Assembly: GCF_001422405.1 (NCBI RefSeq)
Contig: NZ_LMMV01000012.1
Location: forward strand, 598,830-662,829
Reading direction: 5' to 3'
DNA from: Pseudorhodoferax sp. Leaf267
GTDB lineage: Bacteria > Pseudomonadota > Gammaproteobacteria > Burkholderiales > Burkholderiaceae_C
Length of the DNA stretch: 64,000 nt
Part shown: positions 40,058 through 60,150 of the stretch, piece by piece
Numbering within the stretch: the first letter of the stretch is position 1
Layout: each line of letters opens with the position of its first letter
Position numbers and translations under genes: made by a program
Notes under the pieces: model-generated
The model's database searches: none
What the model saw: only the letters and a program-made list of their open reading frames with translations
What the model was told of the DNA's origin: nothing

Positions 40058-40091
40058 TTGGTGCACCGATGGGGTTAGTCTGTATATACAG
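40058..40091 (+). promoter_or_regulatory. Promoter with HutC-like operator before the NMT1-type transporter
   Basis: A perfect 12-bp palindrome CTGTATATACAG (40080-40091) overlaps a plausible -10 TGTATA, with TTGGTG 17 bases upstream as -35. The palindrome resembles HutC-type GntR sites and is nearly repeated in front of hutH. Confidence 0.65.
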
Positions 40092-42935: not shown

Positions 42936-42950
42936 AGTCCAGGCCCGGCC

Positions 42951-43667
42951 ATGGCGCTGTACGAGCAGGTCAAGGAACACATCACGCGCCGCATCCAGAG
43001 CGGCGAATGGCCGGCCGGCCACCGCCTGCCGTCCGAGCACGAGCTCGTCGCCCAGTTCGGCATTTCGCGCATGACGGCCAACCGTGCGCTGCGCGAGTTG
43101 ATGGACCAGGGCCGCGTGGTGCGCGTGGCCGGCGTGGGCAGCTTCGTCGCCGAAGACAAGCCGCAGTCCACGCTGCTGCAGATCGCCAACATCGCCAGCG
43201 AGATCCGCGGCCGCGGCCACGACTACGGCTTCCAGCTCATCGCGTCCGAGCGCGTGGCGGCCTCGCCCGACGTGGCTGTGTGGATGGACGTGCGCATGGG
43301 CGAGTCGCTCGTGCACTGCGTGTGCCTGCACCTGGAAGACGGCGTGCCCGTGCAGCTGGAAGACCGCTACGTGAACCCGCGCCTGGTGCCGGCCTTTCTG
43401 GAGCAGGACTTCTCCAGCGTGCCGCCCAGCGAATACCTGGTGCGCAACGTGCCGTTCGACCAGATCGAGCACCTGGTCGATGCCGTGCTGCCGACGGCCG
43501 AGCAGGCCGAGCGCCTGGCCATGGACCCGGCCGAGCCCTGCCTGCTGCTCACGCGCCGCACCTGGACGCGGGGCCAGACGATCACGCTGGTGCGCTGCCT
43601 GCATCCCGCGTCGCGCTACCGCCTGGGCAGCCGTTTGCGCAACGACGGCAACCAGGGCCTGGGCTGA
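42951..43667 (+). CDS. hutC: Histidine utilisation repressor HutC
   Basis: 238 residues, GntR superfamily. N-terminal winged helix (ALYEQVKEHITRRIQSGEWPAGHRLPSEHELVAQFGISRMTANRALRELMDQG) and C-terminal UTRA effector domain ending ARSWTRG-like TRRTWTRGQTITLVRCLHPASRYRLGSR, the HutC signature. Urocanate is the established inducer of HutC proteins. I start at the ATG at 42951, the usual N-terminus; an in-frame ATG at 42798, two bases after the ATPase stop and with GGAG upstream, would add 51 residues made from the repeat. Part of the transporter transcript. Confidence 0.92.
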   Translation: MALYEQVKEHITRRIQSGEWPAGHRLPSEHELVAQFGISRMTANRALRELMDQGRVVRVAGVGSFVAEDKPQSTLLQIANIASEIRGRGHDYGFQLIASERVAASPDVAVWMDVRMGESLVHCVCLHLEDGVPVQLEDRYVNPRLVPAFLEQDFSSVPPSEYLVRNVPFDQIEHLVDAVLPTAEQAERLAMDPAEPCLLLTRRTWTRGQTITLVRCLHPASRYRLGSRLRNDGNQGLG

Positions 43668-43684: not shown

Positions 43685-43696
43685 TTGTATAGACAG
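43685..43696 (+). promoter_or_regulatory. HutC-like operator before hutH
   Basis: TTGTATAGACAG (with CTTGTATAGACAGG around it) agrees at 10 of 12 positions with the palindrome at 40080-40091. It ends eight bases before the hutH ATG and touches the AGGAA ribosome-binding site. Confidence 0.7.
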
Positions 43697-43704
43697 GAAA
43701 TGCG

Positions 43705-45258
43705 ATGACCGCTGATTTCGAATCCATCACTCTCTCGCCCGGCCACGTCGGGCTGGCGCAGCTGCGCCACATCCACCAGGGCGGTGTGCGACTGACCTTG
43801 GACGATGCCGCCCGCACCGGCCTGCTGGCCGCCCAAGCCACGGTGCAACACATTCTGGACAGCGGGGACGTGGTCTACGGCATCAACACCGGCTTCGGCA
43901 AGCTGGCGCAGACCGTGATCCCGCCCGGCCGGCTGGCCGAGCTGCAGCGCAACCTGGTGCTGTCGCACGCGGTCGGCACGGGCGCGCCGCTGGCGGCCGG
44001 CGTCGTGCGGCTGGTGCTGGCGACCAAGGCCGTGAGCCTGGCGCGCGGCCACTCGGGCATCCGGCCCGAAATCGTGGACGCGCTGTTGGCGCTGTTCAAT
44101 GCCGGCGTCGTGCCGCGCATCCCGGCCAAGGGTTCGGTGGGCGCCTCGGGCGACCTGGCACCGCTGGCGCACCTGGCCTGCGTGCTGATCGGGGAGGGCG
44201 AGGCCACGCTGGCAGACGGCCGCACGGTGCCAGGCGCCGAAGCCATGCGCAGCATCGGCCTGCAACCCTTCGTGCTCGGCCCTAAGGAAGGCCTGGCGCT
44301 GCTGAACGGCACGCAGGTGTCCACCGCGCTGGCGCTGGCCGGCCTGTTCGGCGCCGAGAACGTGTTCGCGGGCGGGCTCATGGCCGGCGCGCTGTCGCTA
44401 GAAGCCATCCAGGGCTCGATCAAGCCCTTCGATGCGCGCATCCACGCCGCACGCGGCCAGCCCGGGCAGATGGCCGTGGCGGGCGCCGTGCGTGCCTTGC
44501 TGGAGGGCAGCGAGATCATCCCCGGCCACGCCCACTGCGGCCGCGTGCAGGACCCGTATTCGATCCGCTGCATCCCCCAGGTCATGGGCGCGTGCCTCGA
44601 CAACCTGGCCCACGCCTCGCGCGTGCTCGTCATCGAGGCCAATGCCGCGTCCGACAATCCGCTGGTCTTCACCGACACGGGCGAGGTCATCTCGGGCGGC
44701 AACTTCCACGCCGAGCCGGTCGCCTTCGCGGCCGACATCATTGCGCTGGCCGTCGCCGAGATCGGCGCGATCTCCGAACGCCGCATGGCGCTGCTGCTGG
44801 ACTCGGGCCTGTCCAACCTGCCGCCGTTCCTGGTGCGCGATGGCGGCGTGAACTCCGGCTTCATGATTGCCCAGGTCACGGCCGCGGCGTTGGCGTCCGA
44901 AAACAAGTCGCTCGCCCACCCGGCCAGTGTGGACAGCCTGCCCACCTCCGCCAACCAGGAAGACCATGTGTCCATGGCCACCTTCGCCGCGCGCCGGCTC
45001 GGCGACATGGTGGACAACACGGCCGTGGTCGTGGGCATCGAGGCCATGGCCGCCTGCCAGGGCATCGAGCTCAAGCATGAACTCAAGTCGAGCCCGCTGA
45101 TGGAGGCCGAGTTCAACGCGATCCGCGAACACGTGGCCTTCATCGAGCAGGACCGCTACCTCGCGCCCGATGTGGAATCCATGCGGCTGTGGGGCCTGGG
45201 CGCCCAAGGCCGCGCCTGGCCAACCGCCGTCACCGCCATCCTGCCCAGCCACGCCTGA
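43705..45258 (+). CDS. hutH: Histidine ammonia-lyase
   Basis: 517 residues. Converts L-histidine to trans-urocanate and ammonia. The MIO cofactor is built from Ala147-Ser148-Gly149 in [24 protein letters not shown] (58-65) supplies the catalytic Tyr, and [14 protein letters not shown] plus the SADQEDHVS-type stretch [12 protein letters not shown] are as in true HutH. AGGAA sits six bases before the ATG. First gene of the main hut transcript; hutU follows 20 bases downstream. Confidence 0.97.
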
Positions 45259-45278: not shown

Positions 45279-47003
45279 ATGAACGCACCCGAGAAGTTCG
45301 TCGCCTCGCCCGCCAATGTCGGCACCCGCCACGACCCCAGCCGCAAGATCGCCGCGCCCACGGGCAGCACGCTCACCTGCAAGAGCTGGCTCACCGAAGC
45401 GCCGTTCCGCATGATCCAGAACAACCTGCACCCCGACGTGGCCGAGCGGCCCGAAGACCTGGTGGTCTACGGCGGCATCGGCCGCGCGGCGCGCAACTGG
45501 GAATGTTTCGACCAGATCCTGGCGTCGTTGAAAGACCTGGACGAGGACGAGACCTTGCTGGTGCAGTCCGGCAAGCCCGTCGGCGTGTTCAAGACGCATG
45601 CCGATGCGCCGCGCGTGCTGCTGGCCAATTCCAACCTGGTGCCGCAGTGGGCCAACTGGGAGCACTTCAACGAGCTGGACCGCAAGGGCCTATTCATGTA
45701 CGGCCAGATGACCGCTGGCAGCTGGATCTACATCGGCGCCCAGGGCATCGTGCAAGGCACCTTCGAGACCTTCGTCGAAGCCGGCCGCCAGCACTACAAC
45801 AACAGTCTCACCGGCAAGTGGATCCTCACCGCCGGCCTGGGCGGCATGGGTGGCGCGCAGCCGCTGGCCGGCGTGCTGGCCGGCGCCTGCGTGCTGGCCA
45901 TCGAATGCCAGCAGAGCAGCATCGACTTCCGCCTGCGCACGCGCTACCTGGACAAGCAGGCCAGGGACATCGACGACGCGCTCGCGCTGATCCAGCAACA
46001 CACGTCGGCGGGCGAGGCCATCTCCATCGGCCTGCTCGGCAACGCGGCCGAGATCCTGCCCGAGCTGGTGCGCCGCGCGAAAGCCGGCGGCATCCGGCCC
46101 GACCTCGTGACCGACCAGACCTCGGCCCACGACCTGATCCACGGCTACCTGCCCGCCGGCTGGACGGTGTCGCAATGGCAGGCCGCCATGAAGGACCCGG
46201 CCCAGCACGCCACGCTCAAGGCCGCTGCCGCCAAGGGCTGCGCCATGCACGTGCAGGCCATGCTGGACTTCCAGGGCATGGGCGTGCCCACGGTGGACTA
46301 CGGGAACAACATCCGCCAGGTCGCCAAGGACGAGGGCGTGGCCAATGCCTTCGACTTCCCCGGTTTCGTGCCGGCCTACATCCGCCCGCTGTTCTGCGAG
46401 GGCAAGGGCCCGTTCCGCTGGGTCGCACTCTCGGGCGATCCGGAAGACATCTACAAGACCGACGCCAAGATCAAGGAGCTGTTCCCCGACAACCACCACA
46501 CGCACCGCTGGCTGGACATGGCGCGCGAGCGCATCGCGTTCCAGGGCCTGCCCGCGCGTATCTGCTGGCTGGGCCTGGGCGAACGGCACCTGGCGGGCCT
46601 GGCTTTCAACGAGATGGTGCGCACCGGCGAGCTCAAGGCCCCGATCGTGATCGGGCGCGACCACCTGGACACGGGCTCGGTCGCCAGCCCCAACCGTGAG
46701 ACCGAAGGCATGCGCGACGGCACGGACGCCGTGAGCGACTGGCCGCTGCTCAACGCGCTGCTCAACACCGCGGGTGGCGCCACCTGGGTCAGCCTGCACC
46801 ACGGCGGCGGCGTGGGCATGGGCTACTCGCAGCATGCCGGCATGGTGATCGTGTGCGACGGCACGGAGGCAGCAGACAAGCGCCTGGCGCGCGTGCTCAT
46901 CAACGACTGCGGCTCGGGGGTGATGCGCCATGCCGACGCGGGCTACGAGTTGGCCGTGGCCACGGCCAGGAAGTTCGGCCTCAAGCTGCCCATGGTGAAG
47001 TAA
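45279..47003 (+). CDS. hutU: Urocanate hydratase
   Basis: 574 residues. Adds water to urocanate giving 4-imidazolone-5-propionate, using tightly bound NAD as electrophile. Signatures: [58 protein letters not shown] and the Cys-containing [28 protein letters not shown] lies seven bases before the ATG at 45279. Slightly longer than most homologues because of an N-terminal extension before KIAAPTGS. Confidence 0.97.
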
Positions 47004-47007
47004 GGCC

Positions 47008-47853
47008 ATGGCCGCGCTGCCCGACACCCCCACGCTGCGCGCGCGTGTGAACGAGCGCGTGGACGCGGCCACCATCGCGCAGTTCCAGCGCGACGGCGCC
47101 TGCGTGATCCGCCAGTTGCTGACGCCCGAAGAACTCGCGCTGCTGGCTGACGGCATCGAGCAAAACCTGGCCGCGCCGAGCCCGCGCGGCAAGGTCGCAA
47201 GCCGGCCCGACGACCCGGGCCGCTTCTTCGAAGACTTCTGCAACTGGCAGCACATCGACGCCTACCGCCGCTTCATCCACGAGACGCCGCTGGCCCTGCT
47301 CGCGCAACGCCTCATGGGTGCGCAGACCGTGCGCCTGTACCACGACCACCTGCTGGTCAAGGAGCCCGGCACGCGGCAGAAGACACCCTGGCACCAGGAC
47401 CAGCCCTACTACAACATCGACGGCCTGCAGAACGTGAGCATGTGGATCCCGGTCGACCCCGTGCCACGCGCGTCCACCCTGGAGTTCGTGGCCGGCTCGC
47501 ACCGGGGGCCCTGGCTCATGCCGCGCACCTTCATGGACCACCAGGCCAAGTGGTTCCCTGAGGGCAGCCTCGCGGACCTGCCCGACATCGAGGGTGCGCG
47601 CGACAAGTTCGACATCCTGGGCTGGGACATCGCAGCCGGTGACTTCGTGTGCTTCCACATGCTCACCTTGCACGCTGCCGCGGGCGTGCAGGGCACGCAG
47701 CGCCGCCGCGTGTTCTCGGTGCGCTTCCTGGGCGACGACATCCGCCATGCGCCGCGGCGCTGGAAGACTTCGCCCGACTTTCCGGGCCTGGCCGATGCGT
47801 TACCGGCCGGAGCGCCCATGGACCATGCGCTGTTCCCGCGGCTGGTCGGGTAG
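47008..47853 (+). CDS. PhyH-family Fe(II)/2-oxoglutarate dioxygenase, unknown substrate
   Basis: 281 residues. The iron-binding triad is visible: His129 and Asp131 in PWHQDQP and distal His222 in MLTLHAAAG, with arginines in RRRVFSVRF as candidates for 2-oxoglutarate binding. The phytanoyl-CoA-dioxygenase superfamily includes hydroxylases of ectoine and other small metabolites. It starts four bases after hutU, so it belongs to the hut transcript, yet no step of the standard histidine pathway needs it. Hydroxylation or oxidative demethylation of an imidazole compound entering the pathway is a reasonable hypothesis. Confidence 0.85.
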   Translation: MAALPDTPTLRARVNERVDAATIAQFQRDGACVIRQLLTPEELALLADGIEQNLAAPSPRGKVASRPDDPGRFFEDFCNWQHIDAYRRFIHETPLALLAQRLMGAQTVRLYHDHLLVKEPGTRQKTPWHQDQPYYNIDGLQNVSMWIPVDPVPRASTLEFVAGSHRGPWLMPRTFMDHQAKWFPEGSLADLPDIEGARDKFDILGWDIAAGDFVCFHMLTLHAAAGVQGTQRRRVFSVRFLGDDIRHAPRRWKTSPDFPGLADALPAGAPMDHALFPRLVG

Positions 47854-47910: not shown

Positions 47911-48639
47911 ATGCTTCTTCGCCGTCACCTCATCGCCGTGGCCCTGCTGTCTGCCGCCGTCGGCGCCCACGCCCAGGCCGTGCTCAAGGTCGCCACCGAC
48001 GCCACCTTCCCGCCCATGGAGTTCTTCGAGAACAACCAGCGCACGGGCTTCGACACCGAACTCGTGGAAGCCATCGGCAAGCAGATGGGCCGCAAGATCG
48101 AGTGGGTGGACATCGACTTCAAGGGCCTGATCCCGGCGCTGGTTTCCAAGCGCGTGGACATGGCCGTGTCGGCCATCTACATCACCGACGAGCGCAAGAA
48201 GGTCGTCGACTTCACCGTGCCCTACTACGCGGGTGGCTTGGTCGCCATGGTCAAGGCCGACAACAGCAGCATCAAGTCGCCCGCCGACCTGGCCGGCAAG
48301 AAGGTCAGCGTGCAGGTGGGCACCAAGTCCGTGGGCTACCTCAAGGAAGCACACCCCAAGGCGCAACTGGTCGAGGTCGAGAAGAACCAGGAGATGTTCA
48401 ACCTCGTCGACGTGGGCCGCAGCGACGCCGCCGTCACCGGCAAGCCCGCCGCCTACCAGTACGTGCGCACGCGGCCGGGCCTGAAGGTGCTGCCCGAGCA
48501 ACTGACCACCGAGGAGTACGGCATGGCCACGCGCAAGGATTCGCCCGAACTCACCAAAGCTGTGAACGATGCATTGGCTCAACTGAAGACGAACGGCGGC
48601 TACGACGCCATCGTCAAAAAGTGGTTCCCGGCGCAATGA
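47911..48639 (+). CDS. Amino-acid ABC transporter substrate-binding protein (HisJ family)
   Basis: 242 residues with signal peptide (cleavage after GAHAQ region, about residue 22). Pattern VATDATFPPMEFFENNQRTGFDTELVEAIGKQMG is characteristic of polar amino-acid binding proteins of the HisJ/GlnH class. In this position a histidine or urocanate ligand is likely. The permease follows after a 183-base spacer that holds a hairpin repeat. Confidence 0.9.
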   Translation: MLLRRHLIAVALLSAAVGAHAQAVLKVATDATFPPMEFFENNQRTGFDTELVEAIGKQMGRKIEWVDIDFKGLIPALVSKRVDMAVSAIYITDERKKVVDFTVPYYAGGLVAMVKADNSSIKSPADLAGKKVSVQVGTKSVGYLKEAHPKAQLVEVEKNQEMFNLVDVGRSDAAVTGKPAAYQYVRTRPGLKVLPEQLTTEEYGMATRKDSPELTKAVNDALAQLKTNGGYDAIVKKWFPAQ

Positions 48640-48822: not shown

Positions 48823-49491
48823 ATGGAACTGGACTTCTCCCCGGTCTGGAGCGGCTGGCAGCAGCTCGTGCAGGGCACGTTGGTCACGGTCGAGATCACC
48901 GTGTGCGCACTGCTGCTGGGATGCGTGCTGGGCCTCCTGGTCGGCATCGGCCGGCTCGATCCGCGACGGCGCTGGCTCTACAGCGCGTGCACCGCCTACG
49001 TGACCGTGATCCGCGGCACGCCGCTGCTGGTGCAGCTCTTCATCCTGTTCTTCGGCCTGCCGCATTTCGGGCTGCTGCTGCCGGCCTTCGTGTGCGGCGT
49101 GCTGGGCCTGGGCGTGTACTCGGGCGCCTATGTGTCGGAGATCGTGCGCGGTGCGATCCAGTCCGTCGCGCAGGGGCAGACGATGGCCGCGCAGTCGCTG
49201 GGCATGACGGCGCCCACCGCCATGCGCCACATCATCCTGCCGCAAGCCGTGGTGCGCATGATTCCGCCGCTGGGCAATGAGTTCATCGCGCTGATCAAGA
49301 ACTCGGCGCTGGTCTCGCTGTTGACCATCCACGACGTGATGCACGAGGGGCAGAAGATCATCAGCGTGTCCTACCGTTCGCTGGAGGTGTACCTGGCGAT
49401 CGCCGCCGTGTACTTCGCGCTCACGGGCACGGTGATGCTGGTGCTGCGCCATGTCGAGCGGCGGCTGAGCCAGGGAGGGCTGGTGCGATGA
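48823..49491 (+). CDS. Amino-acid ABC transporter permease (HisM/HisQ family)
   Basis: 222 residues, about five helices; signature VIRGTPLLVQLFILFFGLP and the EAA-like loop QSLGMTAPTAMRHIILPQAVVRMIPPLGNEFIALIKNSALVS. Pairs with the preceding binding protein. No ATPase of this class is encoded in the window, so it must share one from elsewhere, or homodimerise with a remote ATPase. Its stop overlaps the hutD start by four bases. Confidence 0.92.
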   Translation: MELDFSPVWSGWQQLVQGTLVTVEITVCALLLGCVLGLLVGIGRLDPRRRWLYSACTAYVTVIRGTPLLVQLFILFFGLPHFGLLLPAFVCGVLGLGVYSGAYVSEIVRGAIQSVAQGQTMAAQSLGMTAPTAMRHIILPQAVVRMIPPLGNEFIALIKNSALVSLLTIHDVMHEGQKIISVSYRSLEVYLAIAAVYFALTGTVMLVLRHVERRLSQGGLVR

Positions 49492-50075
49492 CGGCAACAG
49501 TCCAGCGTTTCGATGTGGCCGCGCTGCCAGCCACGCCGTGGAAGAACGGCGGTGGCAGCACGCGTGAGGTCGCCTGCTGGCCGGCCGGCGCGGGCTTCGA
49601 CGAATTCCTCTGGCGCGTGTCCATCGCCAGCATCGCGGCCAGCGGCCCGTTCTCGCGCTTTGCGGGCGTGGACCGTGTGATCACGCTGCTCGATGGCGAC
49701 GGCGTGCTGCTGCAGGGGCAGGGCGTGGACCACCGCCTCGACCGGCCGCTGGCGCCCTTCGCGTTCCGTGGCGACGTCGCGCTCGACTGCACGCTGCTGG
49801 GCGGTGCGTGCAGCGACTTCAACGTGATGACGCGGCGCGGCCGGCTGCGCGCGGAGCTTCAGGTGCTGCATGCTGGTGCCGCGTTGCCCGCCGCACCGCA
49901 TGGCCTGCTGCTGGCCTGGCGCGGTGCCTGGCGCGGTGCCTGGCGGGCGTCGGGCCAACTGTTGGCGAGTGGCCGGGGCCTGTGGTGGGCCGATGCCCCA
50001 CAGGCGTGGACCCTGTCCACGAACGACACCGATGCCGCGCTGCTCGCTGTGCTGTGGCATCAGGAGACCCCATGA
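49488..50075 (+). CDS. hutD: HutD family protein
   Basis: 195 residues, bicupin fold. Opens with the family pattern [17 protein letters not shown] and [26 protein letters not shown]. HutD is found in hut operons but has no enzymatic step; a role as a governor that tempers the pathway by binding formimidoylglutamate or urocanate has been proposed. Contains a local 12-bp tandem duplication giving [12 protein letters not shown]. Overlaps the permease before it and hutI after it (ATGA in both cases). Confidence 0.92.
49914..49946 (+). repeat. In-frame 12-bp tandem repeat in hutD
   Basis: GCCTGGCGCGGT occurs 2.75 times in a row and encodes AWRG repeats. It adds four-residue units and keeps frame. 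Confidence 0.85.
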
Positions 50076-51277
50076 CATTCGATGCATCACCGTCCGCCGA
50101 CGGCCTGTGGACGAACCTGCGCAGCCTGGACGGTCAGCCCTGCGCCATCGCCGTCGTGGACGGCCGCATCGCCTGGACCGGCGCGCCCGATGCCGCGCCC
50201 GCGCACACCACGCGCCACGACGGCCAGGGCGCCCTGGTCACGCCCGGCCTCGTCGACTGCCACACCCACCTGGTCTACGGCGGCCAGCGCGCCAACGAGT
50301 TCGCCATGCGACTGGCCGGCGCCACCTACGAAGAGGTCGCCAGGGCCGGCGGCGGCATCGTCTCCAGCGTGCGCGCTACGCGCGAGGCCAGTGAAGACGA
50401 CCTGTTCACCAGCGCCTCGGCGCGCCTGCAGAGCCTGCTCGCCGAAGGCGTCTGCGCCATCGAGATCAAGTCCGGCTACGGCCTGTCACTCGAACACGAG
50501 CGCAAGCAACTGCGTGTGGCGCGCCGTCTCGGCGAAGCCCATGGCGTGACCGTGCGCACCACCTTCCTCGGCGCGCACGCACTGCCACCCGAGTACGCCG
50601 GCCGCAGCCAGGACTACACCGACCTCGTGTGCCGCGAGATGCTGCCCGCGCTGCATGCCGAGGGCCTGGTCGATGCGGTCGACGTGTTCTGCGAGCGCAT
50701 CGCCTTCTCGCTGGCCGAGACCGAGCAGGTGTTCCAGGCCGCGCAGGTGCTGGGCATCCCGGTCAAGCTGCATGCCGAGCAGTTGAGCGACATGGGCGGC
50801 GCCGCGCTGGCTGCGCGCTACGGTGCGCTGTCGTGCGACCACATCGAGCACCTGTCGCAAGAGGGCGTGGATGCGATGGCCGCTGGCTGCACCGTCGCCG
50901 TGCTGCTGCCCGGCGCCTACTACACGCTGCGCGACACGCATCTGCCGCCCATCGCGGCGCTGCGCGCGGCCGGCGTGCCCATGGCCGTCTCCACCGACCA
51001 CAACCCCGGCACCTCGCCCGCGCTGAGCCTGCTGCTGATGGCCAACATGGCCTGCACGTTGTTCCGCCTGACCGTGCCCGAGGCCATCGCCGGCATCACC
51101 ACGCATGCCGCGCGCGCGCTGGGGCTGCAGGCCACGCACGGCGCCATCGCTGTGGGCATGCCGGCCAACTTCGTGCTGTGGACGCTGCAGGATGCGGCCG
51201 AGCTGGCCTACTGGTTCGGCCAGAGACCTGTGCGCTGCGTGGTGCGGCAGGGGCGCATCGCGGAGGGCGCGGTGTGA
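50072..51277 (+). CDS. hutI: Imidazolonepropionase
   Basis: 401 residues, amidohydrolase superfamily. Opens the imidazolone ring to N-formimidoyl-L-glutamate. Metal-binding HxH in [10 protein letters not shown], followed by [32 protein letters not shown] with its His, HIEHLS and [10 protein letters not shown] (final Asp). Start ATG at 50072 overlaps the hutD stop; the GTG of hutF overlaps its own stop. Confidence 0.97.
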
Positions 51278-52659
51278 CCAATTTGTTCGCCACCGATGCA
51301 CTGCTTGCCAGTGGCTGGGCCCGCGAGGTGCTGCTGCAATGGGACGACGCGGGCCGCCTCACGGCGGTGCAGGCCGGCGCGGCCCGGCCCGCCGGCGTGG
51401 AGGCCGCTGCCGGCCCCGTGGTCCCCGGCACCCCCAACCTGCACTCGCACGCGTTCCAGCGCGCCATCGCCGGCCTGACCGAATACCGCGGCGCGGCAGA
51501 GGACAGCTTCTGGAGCTGGCGCACGCTGATGTACCGCTTCGCGCTCAAGCTCGACCCGGCGCAACTCGAAGCCATCGCCTTCGGCCTGTACGTGGAGATG
51601 CTGGAGGCCGGCTACACCAGCGTCTGCGAGTTCCACTATGTGCACCACGACCAGGACGGCCGGCCCTATGCGGACGACGCCGAACTCGCACTGGCGCTGC
51701 TGCGTGCCGCACGGCGCGCCGGCATCGGCCTGACGCTGCTGCCCGTGCTGTACCAGACCAGCGGTTTTGGTGCCAAGCCACCGGGCGAGGGACAGCGCCG
51801 CTTCGTCCTCTCCACCGACTCCATGCTGCGCCTGCTCGAGTGCCTGCAGCCCGCGTGCGCCGCGCAGGGCGCGCGCCTGGGCCTGGCCCCGCACTCGCTG
51901 CGCGCCGTGCCGCCAGACGCCTTGCGCGAGGCGCTGGCCGGCCTGACGGCGCTGGACGCGTCCGCTCCCATCCACATCCACATCGCCGAGCAGACGCAGG
52001 AGGTGGACGACTGCATCGCCTGGAGCGGCCAGCGCCCCGTGGCCTGGCTGCTGGACCACACGCCGGTCGACGGCCGCTGGTGCCTCGTGCATGCCACGCA
52101 CATGGAGCCCGACGAGTACCGGCGCGCGGCGGCCAGCGGCGCCGTGGCCGGCCTGTGCCCGAGCACCGAGGCCAACCTGGGCGACGGCATCTTCGACCTG
52201 TCTGCCTGGTGCGCCGGGGGCGGCGTGTGGGGCGTGGGCTCGGACAGCCATGTCTGCGTGAACGCTGCCGAGGAACTCATGCTGCTGGAGTACAGCCAGC
52301 GCCTGGCGACGCGCCGGCGCAACGTGGCGGCCAACGCCGCGCAGCCGCAGGTGGCGACAGCCATGACGCTGGCCGCGGTGCGGGGTGGGGCGCAGGCCGC
52401 GGGCCGGCCGGTTGCCGGGCTGGCCGTGGGGCAGCAGGCGGACTTCGTGGTGCTGGATGCGGCACATGCCTCGCTGGCCGGTCTGGAGCCATCGCAGATG
52501 CTCGCTGGCCATGTGTTCGCGAGCCATCGCACGAGTGCGGTGCAGGGCGTGTATGTGGGCGGAAATCCGCGCGTTGTGGCAGGCCGCCATGCCGAGCATG
52601 CGCAGGCCGTCGCGGGCTTCATCGACGCACGCAAGCAGTTGCTTCGAGACGGCGCATGA
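51274..52659 (+). CDS. hutF: Formimidoylglutamate deiminase
   Basis: 461 residues. Hydrolyses N-formimidoyl-L-glutamate to N-formyl-L-glutamate and ammonia, the first step of the two-step (HutF/HutG) branch. Amidohydrolase signatures: [44 protein letters not shown] and [16 protein letters not shown]. Starts at GTG 51274, overlapping hutI's stop as GTGA. The presence of hutF and hutG together shows that this organism frees glutamate via formylglutamate and not via formamide-producing formiminoglutamase. Confidence 0.96.
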
Positions 52660-52710: not shown

Positions 52711-53526
52711 ATGAACTTCACCACCACCGAACCCCCCTTCCGCTTCCGCCAGGGCACCCGCCCTTTGCTGATCTCCATGCCCCACGTCGGCACCCACGTG
52801 CCGCCGGCCCTGGCCGCACGCCTGACCGACGAGGCCCGCCACGTGCCCGACACCGACTGGCACCTGGAGCGCCTCTACGCCTTCGCCGACACCCTCGGTG
52901 CCTCGGTGCTGGTCGCCACCCACAGCCGCTACGTCATCGACCTGAACCGCCCGCCGGACGGCGCCAGCCTCTACCCTGGCCAGAGCGTCACCGGCCTGTG
53001 CCCGGTCGACACCTTCGACGACACGCCGCTCTACGCCCACGGCGACGTGCCGGGTGAGGCCGAGATCGCCGCGCGCCGCAACGCCATCTGGCACCCGTAC
53101 CACGCCCAGCTGGCCGAAGAGCTGGCACGCATCCGGGCGCAACACGGCATCGCCATGCTGTGGGACGCGCACTCCATCCGGTCCGAGCTGCCGCGCTTCT
53201 TCGACGGCAAGCTGCCGGACCTGAACCTGGGCACCGGCAAGGGCATGAGCTGCGACCCGGCGCTGGCCGACCGGCTGCTGTCCATCGCGCGCGAGGCCGA
53301 GGGCTACACCAGCGTGCTGAACGGCCGCTTCACGGGCGGCTACATCACGCGCCACCATGGCCAGCCGGGGCAGGGCGTGCACGCCGTGCAGCTGGAGATG
53401 ACGCAGTCCAGCTACATGCAGGAGGCACTGCCGTTCGACTACCTGCCCGAAGTGGCCGCTGGCGTGCAGCCGCATTTGCAGCGCATGCTGCAAGCCGTGC
53501 TCGCATTCGCCGAAGCGCGCGCGTGA
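52711..53526 (+). CDS. hutG: N-formylglutamate amidohydrolase
   Basis: 271 residues. Releases formate and glutamate from N-formylglutamate, the last Hut step. FGase family motifs: LLISMPHVGTHVPP, DTDWHLERLYAF, YVIDLNRPPDG, MLWDAHSIRSELPRFFDGKLPDLNLGT and QLEMTQSSYM. Start at the ATG at 52711 gives the family N-terminus (MNFTTTEPPFRFRQGTRPL); an ATG 42 bases earlier is less likely. 51-base spacer after hutF. Confidence 0.95.
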   Translation: MNFTTTEPPFRFRQGTRPLLISMPHVGTHVPPALAARLTDEARHVPDTDWHLERLYAFADTLGASVLVATHSRYVIDLNRPPDGASLYPGQSVTGLCPVDTFDDTPLYAHGDVPGEAEIAARRNAIWHPYHAQLAEELARIRAQHGIAMLWDAHSIRSELPRFFDGKLPDLNLGTGKGMSCDPALADRLLSIAREAEGYTSVLNGRFTGGYITRHHGQPGQGVHAVQLEMTQSSYMQEALPFDYLPEVAAGVQPHLQRMLQAVLAFAEARA

Positions 53527-53585
53527 GCCTCGCCCGGCCGCCCGAAGAGGCCCAGCACCGCAGCACGCAGTGCGAAGGTGGTCCT

Positions 53586-54968
53586 GTGCGCAACCTGCTC
53601 GCCGACCTGCGCGCCGCGCTCGGCGCCGATGCCGTGGCGAGCGGCGATGCGATCCCCGAGCGCTGCCTGACGGATTGGAGCGGCGTCACCCCCGTGTGGC
53701 CGCTGGCCCTGGTGCGCCCGCGCAGCACGGAGGAAGTCAGCGCCACGCTGCGCCTGTGCACCCGACACCGCGTGCCCGTGGTGCCGCAAGGCGGGCTCAC
53801 CGGCCTGGCCGGCGCGGCCGTGCCCTTGGCCGATGCCATCGCGCTGTCTCTGGACCGCATGCAGGCCATCGAGTCGGTCGACGCCGCCACGCGCACGCTG
53901 ACGGCGCAAGCCGGTGCGACGGTGCTGGCAGTGCAGCAAGCGGCCGCGGCCCAGGGCCTGCTCTTCGGCGTCGATTTCGGCGCGCGTGGCTCGGCCCAGG
54001 TCGGCGGCGCGCTGGCCACCAACGCCGGTGGCAACGGCGTGCTGCGCTTCGGCATGATGCGCGAGCAGACGCTGGGGCTGGAGGTGGTGCTGGCCGACGG
54101 CACCGTGTTGCCCATGCTGCGCCCCATGCAGAAGAACAACACGGGCTACGACCTCAAGCAGTTCTTCATCGGCGCCGAGGGCACGTTGGGCGTGATCACG
54201 CGCGCGCTCTTCAGGCTGCACCCCGCGCCCGTGGCGCGCGCCACCATGCTGGTCGCCGTCGCGGACTTCGATGCCGCGCTCGCGCTGCTGGGCCGGCTGC
54301 AGGCGCGCTGCGGCGCGGGCCTGGCGGCGTTCGAGCTGATGTGGCGCGACTTCATCGAGGCGTCCATGGCCTGGCAGCAGCTGCGCGAGCCCTTCGACCA
54401 GCCGCACGCGCTGCTGGCCTTGGTCGATCTCGACGGGCCCGACGAGGCCCTGCTGCGCGCCGCGCTCGAAGACGTGCTGGGCCAGGCCCTGGAGGCCGGC
54501 CTGGTGCTGGACGCGGCCATCGCCCAGTCGCAGGCCCAGGCCAGCGCGTTCTGGAAGTACCGCGAAGCCACGGCCGAGCTGCCGGCCCACATGCACCCGC
54601 CCGTCAACTTCGACGTGAGCCTGCCCATGGCCGAGATCGGCCGCTTCGCCGCCGCGTGCCGTGCCGCGCTGGACGCGCGCTGGCCCGGCCACACCAGCGT
54701 CTTCTTCGGCCATGTGGGCGACAGCAACCTGCATGTGTCCACCGACGCCGCCACGGTCGGCGGCGATGTCCCAGGCCTGGAACACCTGGTCTACGAACTG
54801 GTGCGCGACTTCGACGGCAGCATCTCGGCCGAGCACGGCATCGGCCTGCACAAGAAGCCTTACCTGCACGTGAGCCGCACGCCCGGCGAGCTGGCGGCCA
54901 TGCGGGCCATCAAGGCTGCACTGGATCCCCTGTTCCTCATGAATCCTGGAAAGATCTTCGACCGATGA
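53586..54968 (+). CDS. FAD-linked 2-hydroxyacid dehydrogenase in the hut locus
   Basis: 460 residues, GlcD/D-lactate-dehydrogenase family, paralogue of the enzyme at 31228 with the same landmarks: VVPQGGLTGLAGAA, GARGSAQVGGALATNAGGNGV, KNNTGYDLKQFFIGAEGTLG, GHVGDSNLHV, DFDGSISAEHGIGLHKK. Start GTG at 53586 has AAGGTGG just upstream; GTG 53523, overlapping the hutG stop, would add 21 residues. Its stop overlaps the aminotransferase start, so the two are translated together. In this setting it may oxidise imidazole-lactate (a common histidine-derived hydroxyacid) to imidazole-pyruvate; inferred from context only. Confidence 0.85.
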   Translation: MRNLLADLRAALGADAVASGDAIPERCLTDWSGVTPVWPLALVRPRSTEEVSATLRLCTRHRVPVVPQGGLTGLAGAAVPLADAIALSLDRMQAIESVDAATRTLTAQAGATVLAVQQAAAAQGLLFGVDFGARGSAQVGGALATNAGGNGVLRFGMMREQTLGLEVVLADGTVLPMLRPMQKNNTGYDLKQFFIGAEGTLGVITRALFRLHPAPVARATMLVAVADFDAALALLGRLQARCGAGLAAFELMWRDFIEASMAWQQLREPFDQPHALLALVDLDGPDEALLRAALEDVLGQALEAGLVLDAAIAQSQAQASAFWKYREATAELPAHMHPPVNFDVSLPMAEIGRFAAACRAALDARWPGHTSVFFGHVGDSNLHVSTDAATVGGDVPGLEHLVYELVRDFDGSISAEHGIGLHKKPYLHVSRTPGELAAMRAIKAALDPLFLMNPGKIFDR

Positions 54969-56080
54969 GCGCCGACATCCTGGCCCTGGCCCGCCCCGAA
55001 GTGCCACCGCTGCCCGCCTACAACGCCGGCCTGTCCTCGCAGGCGGTACGCGCCCGTTACGGCGTGGACCACATCGCCCGCCTGGGCAGCAACGAGAACC
55101 CCTATGGCCCCAGCCCGCGCGTGGCCGAGGCCCTGGCCGGGCTGGCCGGACAGGTGCTGCATTACTCCGATGCCGACAGCACGGCACTGCGCGAGGCCAT
55201 CGCCGCGCGCAGCGGCACACAGGCCGGCCACATCGTCATCGGCAACGGCTCCGAGTCCATCCTGCAGATGCTCAGCCTGGCGCTGCTGTCGCCGGGCGAC
55301 CGCGTGCTCACGCAGCGCCCGGCCTTCGGCCTGCATGAGATCTACCCGCGCATGATGGGCGCCCAGGTCGAGCTGCTGGAGCTCACGCCCGCGCTCGGCT
55401 TCGACGTCGACGCCTGGTGCGCGGCACTGGCCCGCGGCCCCAAGATCGCGATGCTGGCCAACCCGTCGAACCCGGTGAGCTGCATGTTCGAGACCGCGGC
55501 CTTCGCGCGGCTGCTGGCCGCCACGCCGGCCGGCACGCTGCTGGTCGTCGATGAGGCCTACGTCGAATATGCGCGGCTCACGCCGGGCTTCCCCGACGCC
55601 TTGCCCATGCTGCGCGACTGGGGCGGTGCCTGGATCGTGCTGCGCACCTTCTCCAAGGCCTGGGGCCTGGCCGGCTTGCGCGTGGGCTACGGCATCGCCA
55701 GCGATGCGGCACTGGTGCAGCTGCTCGACCGCGTGCGCACGCCCTTCGGCGTGAACCTGGCGGCCCAGCTGGCCGCCTGCGCGGCGCTGGCCGACGAGGC
55801 CCACATGCGCCAGGGTGTGGCGCGGACCGTGCTGCAGCGCGATGCCATGGCGGCGCAGCTGCAGGCCCTGGGCCTGCGCGTGGCGCCCTCGGCCACCAAC
55901 TTCCTGTTCGTCGACCTGGGCCGGCCCAACGGCCCGGTGAACGAAGCGCTGCTGGCGCGCGGCGTGATCGTCAAGCCGTGGAAGGAGGCGGGCTTCACGC
56001 AATTCCTGCGCATCAGCATCGGCACGGACGACGACAACGCGCGGTGCCTGGCGGCGCTGCGCACGGCGCTCGCCAGCTGA
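54965..56080 (+). CDS. hisC: HisC-like class I/II aminotransferase
   Basis: 371 residues. Histidinol-phosphate aminotransferase family: LGSNENPYGPSP, GNGSESILQ, VDEAYVEY (Asp196-Tyr199) and PLP Lys231 in RTFSKAWGLAGLRVGYG. In the histidine biosynthetic operon such enzymes make histidinol phosphate, but here the gene ends a catabolic operon, overlapping the FAD dehydrogenase by four bases. Histidine/imidazole-pyruvate or aromatic amino acid transamination are natural alternatives within this family. It could instead simply be a second biosynthetic HisC. Confidence 0.85.
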   Translation: MSADILALARPEVPPLPAYNAGLSSQAVRARYGVDHIARLGSNENPYGPSPRVAEALAGLAGQVLHYSDADSTALREAIAARSGTQAGHIVIGNGSESILQMLSLALLSPGDRVLTQRPAFGLHEIYPRMMGAQVELLELTPALGFDVDAWCAALARGPKIAMLANPSNPVSCMFETAAFARLLAATPAGTLLVVDEAYVEYARLTPGFPDALPMLRDWGGAWIVLRTFSKAWGLAGLRVGYGIASDAALVQLLDRVRTPFGVNLAAQLAACAALADEAHMRQGVARTVLQRDAMAAQLQALGLRVAPSATNFLFVDLGRPNGPVNEALLARGVIVKPWKEAGFTQFLRISIGTDDDNARCLAALRTALAS

Positions 56081-56545
56081 CCAGGCCGACGTGCAGCAGG
56101 CCACGGCGTTGGCCGGGCTCGAAGGCGGCGGTTGTCGTCGATGCGCAGGATGCGCGCGGCGCGCACATGGGCGCCTCGGCGGCAACGCGCGCGTGCTGCC
56201 GTAGCCCCCGTGGATCTGCAGCGTGAGGCCCCAGGTGGACTCGAGCCGCACCTGCGTGTGGGCCACCATCCACTGATGCCCGCCTGTTGGCCAGCGGCGC
56301 GCCGCGATGTGGACGTGCTGTGGGCCGAGCCGTTGTTCGAGCGCCTGCTCGCGCGCGCAGAGTGACAACAGCGCGGTTGCGCCGTCATCCTCAGCGTGCA
56401 CGCCGCGAATACGTAGCGCAGGGGCAACAAGATACAAACGCGCGCTGCCGCGGTGCTAATGTCCCTGCGGCGCGTTCGTTCGAGGGGCCCGTACACGCAA
56501 CACACCGCCCTGGCTCCTCCCCATCCCAACCTCAAGAAAACCAAC
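56081..56545. other. Long intergenic region after the hut locus
   Basis: 465 bases with no intact gene. It contains the acyl-CoA dehydrogenase remnant on the minus strand and presumably the promoter of the following outer-membrane protein gene. No terminator was recognised after the aminotransferase gene. Confidence 0.6.
56130..56290 (-). pseudogene. Decayed acyl-CoA dehydrogenase C-terminal fragment
   Basis: On the minus strand one frame reads WMVAHTQVRLES then LQIHGGYG, followed after a frame change by RAARILRIDDN. This is the order of the acyl-CoA dehydrogenase C-terminus (QIHGGYGYTREYPVER then RDARILRIYEG). The two halves are in different frames and no complete domain remains. The surrounding 465 bases between the aminotransferase and the outer-membrane protein show no other gene. 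Confidence 0.4.
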
Positions 56546-57646
56546 ATGAAAGCGAACACCAACGCCGCGCTGGCAGCAGCTTGCGGTCTCTTCTTCATCG
56601 GAGCGCCTGCGTCCGCGGGCGAGGATTTCCAGATTCGCTACAGCCTGGCCGGGACGCTGGGCGGCGAGATCTTCGCGTCGCCTGATCTGAAAGGGCTGAC
56701 GGGCGGCATCGCGCTCACGCGCGTCGACGTCCACCGGCTCACGGGCGACGATGGCAACAAGCTGACCCAGACCACGCCCGGCGGCACCGTGCCGCTGCCC
56801 GCACCGACGCCCTCGGCCCTGTACCCGACCTACGGGGCCAACCGCGTGCTGGTGCATGGCACCGGCTCGCTGGTGCAATGGAACCTGGGCCTGCTGTATC
56901 TGACCGAGACCACGTACAACGGCGGGCGCATCGCGGTCGGCCTCAATCTGCCGTATGGCATCAAGAAGCAAGCCTTTCGCGCCGAAGGTGCGACGCCGGC
57001 CTTGCGCTGGAACCCGGCTGTGCCGGCGCCGACGCAGGCCGCTGTCGGTGCCCGTTTCGGCGCGCAGTACCAGTCCACGCTCGCCGCCACGGCAGATGCG
57101 GCCAGCGGCGACGTGTCGGGCATCGGCGATGTCGAGCTGAGCCTGGGCTGGCGTCAGGCGACCGAGCAACTGCGCGTGACCGTCGGCGCTTCGCTGGTAT
57201 TGCCGACCGGCAAGTACAACGACGAGGCCGGCCCGGACATCGGCTTCGGCAATTTCTACACGCTGCGGCCCGCGGCGCAGGTGGTCTATCTGCCCGTCCC
57301 TGAAGTCGCTCTGGCCGGCAGGCTGACCCTGGGCTTCAACACCACCAACCGCGACAACGACTTGCGCAGCGGCAACTGGGCCACGCTGGAGACGGCGGCA
57401 GGCTACAAGTCCAGGGTGGGCGTGTTCGGCGTGCACCTGCTGCATGCCCAGCAGTACCAGGACGACCGAAACAGCCCCTGGGGCAGCAGCCGCTACCGCT
57501 CCACCAACGGCGGCTTTTTCTACACGGCCCGCTTCCCGGACCGGGACGATGGCTTCGTGATTACGCTGCAACGCATGGCGTCGCTGAGTTCGCGCAACGC
57601 CAAGCACGGCAGCTACTCGCAGATACGCGTCAGCAAGAGCTTCTGA
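56546..57646 (+). CDS. SphA/phenol-MetA-type outer-membrane protein
   Basis: 366 residues with a signal peptide (cleavage after ASAG region, about residue 24). The rest is built of alternating amphipathic strands with many Tyr, Gly and Thr, ending in Phe (ISQIRVSKSF), as in beta-barrel proteins. Segments such as GRIAVGLNLPYGIKKQAF, SGIGDVELSLGWR and GASLVLPTGKYNDEAGPDIGFGNFYTLRPA match the family proposed to transport hydrophobic aromatic substrates across the outer membrane. It stands alone between a pseudogene remnant and a terminator, so its partner pathway is unclear. Confidence 0.78.
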   Translation: MKANTNAALAAACGLFFIGAPASAGEDFQIRYSLAGTLGGEIFASPDLKGLTGGIALTRVDVHRLTGDDGNKLTQTTPGGTVPLPAPTPSALYPTYGANRVLVHGTGSLVQWNLGLLYLTETTYNGGRIAVGLNLPYGIKKQAFRAEGATPALRWNPAVPAPTQAAVGARFGAQYQSTLAATADAASGDVSGIGDVELSLGWRQATEQLRVTVGASLVLPTGKYNDEAGPDIGFGNFYTLRPAAQVVYLPVPEVALAGRLTLGFNTTNRDNDLRSGNWATLETAAGYKSRVGVFGVHLLHAQQYQDDRNSPWGSSRYRSTNGGFFYTARFPDRDDGFVITLQRMASLSSRNAKHGSYSQIRVSKSF

Positions 57647-57684
57647 GCGCTCCCGCCGGCCGCCCAGCGTGGCCAGGCGCGCAG

Positions 57685-57730
57685 GCCCGTGAACCGTTCC
57701 CCATGGGGGCGGCCACGGGCTTCGTTTTTT
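57685..57730 (+). terminator. Rho-independent terminator after the outer-membrane protein
   Basis: GCCCGTG (57685-57691) pairs with CACGGGC (57714-57720), with an inner CCCC/GGGG stem, followed by TTCGTTTTTT. Confidence 0.82.
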
Positions 57731-57878
57731 GGCGACCTAGGGTAAGCACGGGGGCAAGCCCACCCAATGGCGCTTGATCGCGTTCATTTTTTGTATCCAA
57801 ATAACGAACTCAAAAAAACGACGCAAAAAATCAGCGTTGCACCCGGCTCCACCACCACCTGACCCGAGGAGACACACC

Positions 57879-59363
57879 ATGAGCACAGCCGTCAGTCCCG
57901 CCCCCGCCGGGGTCGCCACAGGCCATGCGCCGCACGCGGAATCCAACGCCCTCATCAAGCCGGGCTACCACCCGCGCCTGACCAACGAGGACCTGGCCCC
58001 GCTCAAGAAGCAGACCTGGGGCCAATACAACATCTTTGCGTTCTGGATGGCCGACGTGCACAGCGTGGGCGGCTACATCACGGCCGGAAGCCTGTTTGCG
58101 CTGGGCCTGACGAGCTGGCAGGTGCTGATCGCCCTGCTCGTGGGCATCTTGATCGTGCAGTTCTTCTGCAACCTGGTGGCCAAGCCCAGCCAGCAGACCG
58201 GCACGCCGTACCCGGTGATCTGCCGCGCTTCGTTCGGCGTGCTGGGCGCCAACATCCCGGCCATCATCCGTGGGCTGATCGCGGTGGCCTGGTACGGCAT
58301 CCAGACCTATCTGGCGTCCAGCGCCGTGATGATCCTGGCGCTGCACTTCTTCCCGCAGTGGGCGCCGTACGCCGATGTCGCGCAGCACGGCTTCGTCGGC
58401 CTGTCGGCGCTCGGCTGGGCCGCGTTCATGGTCATGTGGGTGCTGCAAGCCTTCGTGTTCTGGCACGGCATGGAAGCCATCCGCAAGTTCATCGACTGGG
58501 CCGGCCCGGGCGTCTACGTGGTCATGGCCATCCTGTGCGGCTGGCTGGTCTGGAAGGCCGGCTGGAGCAACATCGACTTGAACCTGGGCGGCGTGAAGTT
58601 CCAGGGCTGGGACGCGGTGCCGGTGATGCTGTCGGCCATCGCGCTGGTGGTCAGCTACTTCAGCGGCCCGATGCTGAACTTCGGCGACTTCTCGCGCTAC
58701 GGCAAGAGCTTCGACGCGGTGAAGAAGGGCAACTTCTGGGGCCTGCCGATCAACTTCGTGTTCTTCTCGCTGCTGACGGTCGTGACGACCGCGGCCACGC
58801 TGCCGGTGTTCGGCGAACTCATCACCGACCCGGTGCACACGGTCGGCAAGATCGACAGCACGACGGCCGTGGTGCTGGGCGCGCTGACCTTCATGATCGC
58901 CACGGTGGGCATCAACATCGTGGCCAACTTCGTGTCGCCCGCGTTCGACTTCTCCAACGTAGCACCGCAGCACATCAGCTGGCGCACGGGCGGCATGATC
59001 GCGGCCGTGGGCTCGATCTTTCTGACGCCCTGGAACCTGTACAACAACCCGCAGGTGATCCACTACACGCTGGATGTGCTGGGCTCCTTCATCGGCCCGC
59101 TGTTCGGCATCCTCATCGCCGACTTCTACATCGTGCGCAAGCAGCGCGTGGACGTGGACGCGCTCTACACCATGAGCGAGCAGGGCGAGTACTGGTACCA
59201 GAACGGCTACAACATGAAGGCGGTGTGGACCATGATCCCCGCGGCGCTGGTGCCCATCCTGTGCGTGATCGTGCCGGGGCTGCGCGGCGGTGCCAACTAC
59301 GCGTGGTTCATTGGCATGGGCCTGGGTTTCATCATCTACACCGCGTTGAACCGCAAGAGCTGA
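57879..59363 (+). CDS. NCS1-family nucleobase/hydantoin/allantoin permease
   Basis: 494 residues with about 12 helices. NCS1 landmarks: the N-terminal LTNEDLAPLKKQTWGQYNIFAFWMADVHSVGGY, an internal TPYPVICRASFGVLGANIPAIIRG and ISWRTGGMIAAVGSIFLTPWNLY. Sodium- or proton-coupled uptake of a nucleobase-like cyclic ureide. CGAGGAGA lies seven bases before the ATG at 57879. Three bases separate it from a hydantoin racemase gene, favouring a hydantoin-type or allantoin-type substrate. Confidence 0.92.
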   Translation: MSTAVSPAPAGVATGHAPHAESNALIKPGYHPRLTNEDLAPLKKQTWGQYNIFAFWMADVHSVGGYITAGSLFALGLTSWQVLIALLVGILIVQFFCNLVAKPSQQTGTPYPVICRASFGVLGANIPAIIRGLIAVAWYGIQTYLASSAVMILALHFFPQWAPYADVAQHGFVGLSALGWAAFMVMWVLQAFVFWHGMEAIRKFIDWAGPGVYVVMAILCGWLVWKAGWSNIDLNLGGVKFQGWDAVPVMLSAIALVVSYFSGPMLNFGDFSRYGKSFDAVKKGNFWGLPINFVFFSLLTVVTTAATLPVFGELITDPVHTVGKIDSTTAVVLGALTFMIATVGINIVANFVSPAFDFSNVAPQHISWRTGGMIAAVGSIFLTPWNLYNNPQVIHYTLDVLGSFIGPLFGILIADFYIVRKQRVDVDALYTMSEQGEYWYQNGYNMKAVWTMIPAALVPILCVIVPGLRGGANYAWFIGMGLGFIIYTALNRKS

Positions 59364-59366
59364 GCC

Positions 59367-60104: not shown

Positions 60105-60138
60105 GGGCATGCAGCGCGGCGCGGGTCATCTGCTAAGC

Positions 60139-60144
60139 CACAAT
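60139..60144 (+). promoter_or_regulatory. Putative -10 element giving leaderless GntR mRNA
   Basis: CACAAT, exactly six bases before the ATG at 60151, as for murB and folC. Confidence 0.5.
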
Positions 60145-60150
60145 CTGCGC

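Follow-up and report, generated by a model that had tools for sequence, protein, structure and literature searches.

The window analysed here is a 64,000-nucleotide stretch of the genome of Pseudorhodoferax sp. Leaf267 (assembly GCF_001422405.1, contig NZ_LMMV01000012.1, forward-strand positions 598,830 to 662,829; positions below count from its first letter). It contains a histidine utilization (hut) operon that ends in a gene for an FAD-linked 2-hydroxyacid dehydrogenase (DH) and a gene for a HisC-like aminotransferase (AT). Judging from sequence comparisons, and with a probability of roughly 0.55, we propose that DH and AT add to histidine utilization a salvage branch of two steps, which leads from imidazole-lactate to histidine. 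DH would oxidise a D-2-hydroxyacid, most likely D-imidazole-lactate, to imidazole-pyruvate, passing the electrons via FAD; AT would then transaminate imidazole-pyruvate, with glutamate as the probable amino donor, and HutH would take the resulting L-histidine into the ordinary HutHUIFG pathway. Both genes would be co-transcribed with the hut genes and induced through HutC. We infer the imidazole-lactate substrate, its D-stereochemistry, co-transcription, control by HutC and the direction of flux.

The original prediction had an FAD-linked hydroxyacid dehydrogenase and a HisC-family aminotransferase, overlapping each other by four bases, after hutG, and the families, the order and the overlap were all confirmed. 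The reported interval, 53586..56080, runs from the start of DH to the stop of AT. Reading frame, domains and alignment identify DH (53586..54968, + strand, 460 amino acids) as an FAD-linked, presumably D-specific 2-hydroxyacid dehydrogenase of the VAO/PCMH family; its frame begins with GTG at 53586, with AAGGTGG shortly before it, and ends with TGA at 54968, and 59 bp separate it from the end of hutG (53526). AT (54965..56080, + strand, 371 amino acids), identified by frame, profile scores and alignment as a HisC-like class I/II aminotransferase of the PRK05166 group, begins with ATG at 54965 and ends with TGA at 56080, so that the two genes overlap by the 4 bp ATGA.

DH carries the PF01565 and PF02913 domains (134 and 180 bits) that define FAD-linked 2-hydroxyacid dehydrogenases of the VAO/PCMH type. 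Its top NCBIfam model is that of the glycolate oxidase GlcD, whose curated cut-off it misses widely (251 of 568 bits). Seven solved structures matched DH, the uncharacterised oxidoreductase 3pm9 first and human D-2-hydroxyglutarate dehydrogenase (D-2-HGDH) second. We took residue roles in the human enzyme from passages of PMC7801405. The catalytic and metal-binding Arg386, His434, His441, Glu475 and His476 correspond to Arg326, His376, His383, Glu416 and His417 of DH, and these five are invariant in each of the 59 rows of a 75-row alignment that reach at least 50% identity. Those rows take in the window itself as well as loci retrieved for other purposes, and some share a contig or genome, making them a non-independent sample; L083 (genome G003), where DH is in two pieces, was excluded.

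The residues that hold the distal carboxylate in the human enzyme are another matter. Thr390, Lys401, Tyr432 and Asn443 align with Ala330, Asn341, Phe374 and Ser385 of DH; among the same 59 rows the Lys401 position holds Asn in 56 and Gly in the remaining 3, and the Tyr432 position is always Phe. According to the same passages of PMC7801405, mutation of Lys401 abolished the activity of human D-2-HGDH. These substitutions bear on the suggestion that DH oxidises D-2-hydroxyglutarate or D-malate and clears 2-hydroxyglutarate made during growth on glutamate-yielding substrates, which the rank of D-2-HGDH among the structural matches favours and which would account for DH beside hutF and hutG in genomes without hutH (below). 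Because the distal-carboxylate lysine is absent, and with the other three positions also changed, we rejected 2-hydroxyglutarate and malate as substrates on the distal pocket and regard this explanation as very unlikely. The DH pocket appears small, uncharged and partly polar, which would be compatible with an imidazole side chain as well as with other side chains. The family members studied in the relevant parts of PMC7801405 and PMC10589216 are D-specific. A second FAD-linked hydroxyacid dehydrogenase of the window (31228-32637) is 47% identical to DH and has a different pocket, with Ser, Ser and Val where D-2-HGDH has Thr390, Lys401 and Asn443.

AT has the PF00155 domain. It passes NF003496 (PRK05166), a model named histidinol-phosphate transaminase, with 547 bits against a cut-off of 540, and this name is the first argument for an ordinary biosynthetic histidinol-phosphate aminotransferase that stands at the end of the hut operon by chance; the second is that a relative of AT in Pseudomonas matsuisoli passes TIGR01141 hisC (279 bits; cut-off 276.55) while failing NF003496 (497 against 540). 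AT itself scores 271 bits with TIGR01141, slightly below the cut-off, and lies outside a his operon. Nor is AT the genome's sole HisC, a case that the original prediction had raised against itself. Among 25 TIGR01141 matches in the genome the best three score 302, 289 and 271 bits; only the third of these, AT, is under the cut-off, the 302-bit gene sits between hisD and hisB, and the 289-bit gene (on contig C12) adjoins a CobD/CbiB-family gene. With AT also confined to few relatives and tracking hut (below), a chance biosynthetic copy seems highly improbable, and the locus makes it doubtful that histidinol-phosphate transaminase is a fitting name for this group of aminotransferases.

The top PDB match to AT is Rv3772 (4R2N). 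We compared active-site positions as given in parts of PMC4703992 and found Glu97, Phe121, Leu123, Phe261, Lys337 and Arg349 in 35 of 35 aligned members, the window included. These residues mark a coherent group without proving histidine as the product. We had considered Lys337, where the Mycobacterium tuberculosis enzyme HspAT has a phosphate-binding Arg337, as a sign against histidinol phosphate, and dropped the argument because the hisD-hisC-hisB copy likewise carries Lys there.

The genomic company of the pair ties it to hut. Searching 200 genomes of the same family, to which Comamonadaceae records belong, with NF003496 (E up to 1e-110), we found AT in 12, in 11 of them over the model's cut-off, and at least one hut gene lay in the stretch read around AT in all 12 (the window, seven fetched loci, and L024, L025, L049 and L053). 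For one of these, in genome G128, hutG and a hutC relative of 33% identity are the sole hut genes. Since hutU occurs in 101 of the 200 genomes and AT in 12, only a minority of hut operons carry AT. DH was found in 22 of the 200 (E up to 1e-120), at 60% identity or more in 16 and at only 47-50% in six; its nearest relatives are mostly from Pseudorhodoferax (83-84% identity). A hut gene stands beside DH in 13 of the 16, twelve of these loci having been read and that of G177 judged from coordinates; the three without are G105, G194 and G053.

A contig scan gave 61 DH loci, a set distinct from the alignment rows. We tabulated 59: 44 at 58% identity or more, 4 at 50-58% and 11 below 50%. L077 (two pieces) and L079 (partial) had no piece above 400 residues and were left untabulated, and for L076 the better of two DH copies was counted. 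A neighbouring gene was scored as present above 100 bits in tblastn, and contig ends truncate some loci. Hut genes accompany 37 of the 44 close DH loci and AT accompanies 20, all 20 being hut-linked; the position of the pair varies, either 3' of hutG or between hutI and hutF (L028, L030, L035, L036). The possibility that the pair is usually unlinked to hut, also raised by the original prediction, thus finds no backing, and the hut linkage of DH and AT is real and recurrent, beyond chance. Both genes are linked to hutH in the window and in the examined loci that hold hutH; G128, which has no hutH, differs. Farther afield, Rhodospirillales relatives of DH adjoin a short-chain dehydrogenase (in the three scanned) or hutF (L065, L077), and Gly replaces Asn341. 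Of three plasmid records with DH, the annotated one is a Comamonadaceae hut operon that ends in an 'FAD-binding oxidoreductase' and is without AT.

The pair recurs in a second, gammaproteobacterial lineage. The P. matsuisoli locus (L061) has, in this order, hutH, a gene resembling FMN-dependent L-lactate dehydrogenase (PF01070; top NCBIfam model 317 of 376 bits), DH (54% identical), amino-acid ABC transporter genes and AT (49%), with hutC on the opposite strand. In this species and six other gammaproteobacteria, hutH, DH, ABC transporter, AT and hutC occur together in 7 of 7 loci; the FMN gene is added in four (P. matsuisoli and three of the six), and all seven genomes have hutI, which coordinates place on the same contig, no more than 20 kb from the cluster. 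The six other genomes come from another gammaproteobacterial family, of which 151 genomes were searched; NF003496 matches these six at 1e-115. In a tree of 42 aminotransferases, with a midpoint root and deep branches that are long and partly open, the seven gammaproteobacterial ATs form a clade (100/98), which unites with four plasmid relatives from outside hut (95/99) and not with the ATs of Comamonadaceae; this suggests that AT may have been recruited into hut twice, separately. The gammaproteobacterial gene set fits an imidazole-lactate branch well. At slightly less than even odds, we suppose further that a branch from hydroxyacid to histidine was placed under hut control at least twice, with an FAD enzyme for D-imidazole-lactate, joined in some lineages by an FMN enzyme acting on the L enantiomer, and one dedicated HisC-derived aminotransferase. 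If so, genes could be assigned to imidazole-lactate use, and both enantiomers of imidazole-lactate would be common nutrients in the environment.

The main rival to an imidazole-lactate branch is that DH and AT are a module, of broad or different specificity, turning D-2-hydroxyacids, such as other polar or aromatic ones, into L-amino acids, and that they travel with hut through a shared transporter and nitrogen control. We consider this possible, though doubtful. A generic module would not predict a hut gene near AT in 12 of 12 family genomes, or AT joining hutH and hutC at each of the seven gammaproteobacterial loci. In favour of the rival, mouse LDHD, which shares its family with DH, accepts many hydrophobic D-2-hydroxyacids, the phenyl analogue included, as reported in part of PMC10589216. 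In four Rhizobium loci, moreover, a DH relative with the same pocket Asn adjoins an FMN hydroxyacid dehydrogenase; in the one scanned (L080:6265-11338) this pair lies near a DDAH-like hydrolase and amidohydrolases, which suggests hydroxyacids with nitrogen-rich side chains.

AT relatives occur in 149 plasmid records, all below 60% identity, of which we read six. On an Escherichia coli plasmid (L107:8938-12377) a 55% AT relative overlaps by 4 bp an annotated alpha-hydroxy acid oxidase of the FMN type, which shares 47% identity with the FMN enzyme of P. matsuisoli, and on a Paracoccus plasmid an AT relative follows a 32% DH relative of the FAD type with a different pocket. These two neighbourhoods, in which AT relatives once more adjoin a hydroxyacid oxidoreductase, count for the imidazole-lactate branch and also for the broader module, and they hint at a reusable module from hydroxyacid to amino acid. 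The E. coli pair is followed by an iron-containing alcohol dehydrogenase and adjoins a Tn3-like transposon, and 56% relatives of AT are recorded on further plasmids from Klebsiella, Escherichia and Enterobacter. On the Roseateles plasmid an FAD-binding oxidoreductase lies about 6 kb from the AT relative, and an annotated hisD lies about 5 kb from AT on the Shinella and S. meliloti plasmids (L111:406-1734; L112:319-1689).

Several observations weigh against the proposed branch, among them loci with an incomplete hut pathway. DH stays next to hutG in six genomes that lack hutU, hutI and a full-scoring hutH; for hutH five gave no match and one Comamonas a match of 392 bits, below the cut-off. Four are Comamonas (L054-L057; for example L055:3894-11359), with transporter genes, hutD, hutF, hutG and DH, and genome searches found no hutU, no hutI and no hutH over the cut-off in them. 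The fifth, G126, has a transporter, hutD, hutF, hutG, DH and an IclR gene, and a genome search found no hutH, hutU or hutI; an IclR-type regulator heads the operon in both loci scanned (L055; L091:9204-16823). These five share the order hutF-hutG-DH, without AT in the locus. The sixth, G128, a one-contig genome in which hutH, hutU and hutI were not found, has DH-AT-hutG with a GntR/UTRA gene; hutF is thus present in five of the six. In these genomes the hut pathway would be closed to any histidine derived from imidazole-lactate. Because DH is kept there, it may have another or wider substrate, as a broad module would have it. Alternatively, these loci may be remnants, or the product may be put to other ends; operons with a transporter, hutD, hutF, hutG and DH possibly serve the use of formimidoylglutamate or formylglutamate. 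Genome G105 likewise has DH, and hutH, hutU and hutI were not found in it.

The same direction is taken by the 7 of 44 close DH loci that lack hut linkage and have the same pocket, which also favour the broad module; two of the genomes concerned (L046, L050) carry hutH and hutU elsewhere. The neighbours of five DH loci outside hut have no common theme among them (LysR with an SBF-like transporter; enoyl-CoA hydratase with a CoA-transferase; an aminotransferase with TctC; a methyltransferase; MOSC). AT is present at just 20 of the 37 hut-linked close DH loci, and three hut operons (L082, L086, L088), from genomes outside the 22 with DH, have AT without DH; these would depend on a different imidazole-lactate oxidoreductase, for instance the NAD(P)-linked enzyme reported in older work. 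AT is rare, occurring in 3 of 369 genomes of a class-wide sample, two of those three from the same family, and none of the 151 genomes of the second gammaproteobacterial family passes the curated NF003496 cut-off. Its pocket residues do not point to histidine in particular, Lys337 being shared with the hisD-hisC-hisB copy; the AT of L035 has Asn where the PLP lysine is expected; and the hisC score of the P. matsuisoli AT belongs here too, as does a hisD-family gene about 4.3 kb from that cluster on the opposite strand (L061:1472-2800). HisD-family genes near AT relatives in P. matsuisoli, Shinella and S. meliloti raise a possible link to histidinol. Of the five annotated plasmid AT loci read besides that of E. 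coli, the four from Mesorhizobium, Shinella, S. meliloti and Roseateles have no annotated hydroxyacid dehydrogenase next to AT, and hut genes appear in none of the five, all within incomplete gene tables. Finally, according to the same part of PMC10589216, mouse LDHD refuses hydrophilic side chains. The proposal that imidazole-lactate is converted to histidine to feed HutH, as first put forward, consequently stands in part: the gammaproteobacterial loci speak for it, the DH pocket speaks against 2-hydroxyglutarate or malate, and DH beside hutG in genomes lacking hutU, hutI and a full-scoring hutH speaks against it.

Candidate regulatory sites would be compatible with control by HutC. We scanned for palindromes with at most 2 mismatches to the HutC operator consensus TTGTATATACAA, using shuffle controls for the window and for L061. 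The window has two matches, and at least two occurred in 0 of 100 shuffles. One (43685..43696, + strand) starts 20 bp before hutH, and DH would be the tenth gene of the unit that it precedes; the other (40080..40091, + strand) lies 5' of NMT1-type transporter genes that precede hutC. Scanning was extended to 19 chosen sequences, namely the window and 18 loci, of which 12 are from Comamonadaceae and 7 gammaproteobacterial. All seven gammaproteobacterial loci have a palindrome 5' of hutH, and four (L090, L102, L103, L104) have one 5' of the binding-protein gene that opens the AT unit, the placement in L103 before the transporter-AT unit being judged from coordinates. Among the 12 Comamonadaceae sequences seven have it 5' of hutH, L064 has it only before a transporter, and the four without hutH (L055, L057, L084, L091) have none. 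A simple consensus scan of 53400-56700 on the + strand found no promoter- or terminator-like sites, which is weakly informative in GC-rich DNA.

The genes 5' of DH are a real hut operon by their sequences, hutC, hutI, hutG, hutF and hutU all exceeding NCBIfam cut-offs. On the + strand, the order is hutC, hutH, hutU, a PhyH-type dioxygenase, an ABC binding protein, a permease, hutD, hutI, hutF, hutG, DH and AT. The GntR/UTRA repressor gene hutC (42948..43667, start approximate) scores 311 bits with TIGR02018 (cut-off 220). The histidine ammonia-lyase gene hutH (43705..45258) has 74-94% identical matches in the examined relatives other than P. matsuisoli, and the urocanate hydratase gene hutU (45279..47003, start approximate) passes TIGR01228 with 937 bits at the matching genome coordinates. 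The amino-acid ABC solute-binding protein (47911..48639) has GlnH as its top model at 196 bits, under that model's cut-off, and the permease (48823..49491) scores 104 bits with TIGR01726 (cut-off 42). For hutD, of the Ves/HutD family (49488..50075), NF008488 gives 108 bits, short of its cut-off of 292; its syntenic counterpart in the annotated plasmid record is labelled HutD family. The imidazolonepropionase gene hutI (50072..51277; TIGR01224, 460 against 298 bits) has its stop overlapped by the GTG start of the formimidoylglutamate deiminase gene hutF (51274..52659; TIGR02022, 585 against 413 bits), and the N-formylglutamate deformylase gene hutG (52711..53526; TIGR02017, 367 against 278.75 bits) completes the series, all on the + strand.

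Two neighbouring features deserve mention. The PhyH-type Fe(II)/2-oxoglutarate dioxygenase (47008..47853, + strand; PF05721) has 40-42% relatives (tblastn) between AT and hutC in L102 and L104; our guess is that its substrate might be a histidine derivative, such as methylated histidine. Downstream of AT, 56546-60870 encodes a MetA-pathway-type protein, an NCS1 permease, a hydantoin/Asp-Glu racemase-family protein and a GntR-looking gene, a possible hydantoin or allantoin unit, and relatives of all four also follow AT in L023.

Compared with known systems, DH shares both domains and the five catalytic and metal-binding residues with human D-2-HGDH (PDB 6LPN) and mouse LDHD (PDB 8JDC and others), and differs from them in having Ala330, Asn341, Phe374 and Ser385 where the former has Thr390, Lys401, Tyr432 and Asn443 and the latter a hydrophobic pocket. 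For Comamonadaceae, part of PMC5343134 predicts a HutC regulon of HutC, the hut enzymes, HutD and the HisXYZ ABC transporter. The window operon has HutC, hut enzymes, HutD and an ABC transporter in common with the HutC regulon of Proteobacteria described there, whereas the HutC section of that paper names no hydroxyacid dehydrogenase or aminotransferase. AT shares the catalytic Lys, the PLP-binding Arg and the carboxylate Arg with HisC and aromatic aminotransferases of subfamily I-beta, but has its own invariant set (Glu97, Phe121, Leu123, Phe261) and is 31-32% identical to the two HisC proteins of the same genome.

Our searches of the open-licence literature turned up no paper on genes for imidazole-lactate degradation. 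By its title, the 1973 work of Coote and Hassall reportedly concerned the degradation of imidazolyl-L-lactate by Pseudomonas (now Comamonas) testosteroni and P. acidovorans, and the enzymes are said to have included a pyridine-nucleotide-linked oxidoreductase. That system would share with our proposal its chemistry, an aminotransferase step followed by hut, and its bacterial family; it reportedly acts on the L form of imidazole-lactate with pyridine nucleotide, whereas DH is FAD-linked, belongs to a family in which the enzymes studied are D-specific and lies genetically within hut. The original prediction took an FAD route for a different solution to the old step. Because the studied members of the DH family are D-specific and the old work concerned imidazolyl-L-lactate, DH would provide a parallel D-route and not the same step with another cofactor. 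For imidazole-lactate degradation as described in 1973, the DH-AT locus now supplies named candidate genes.

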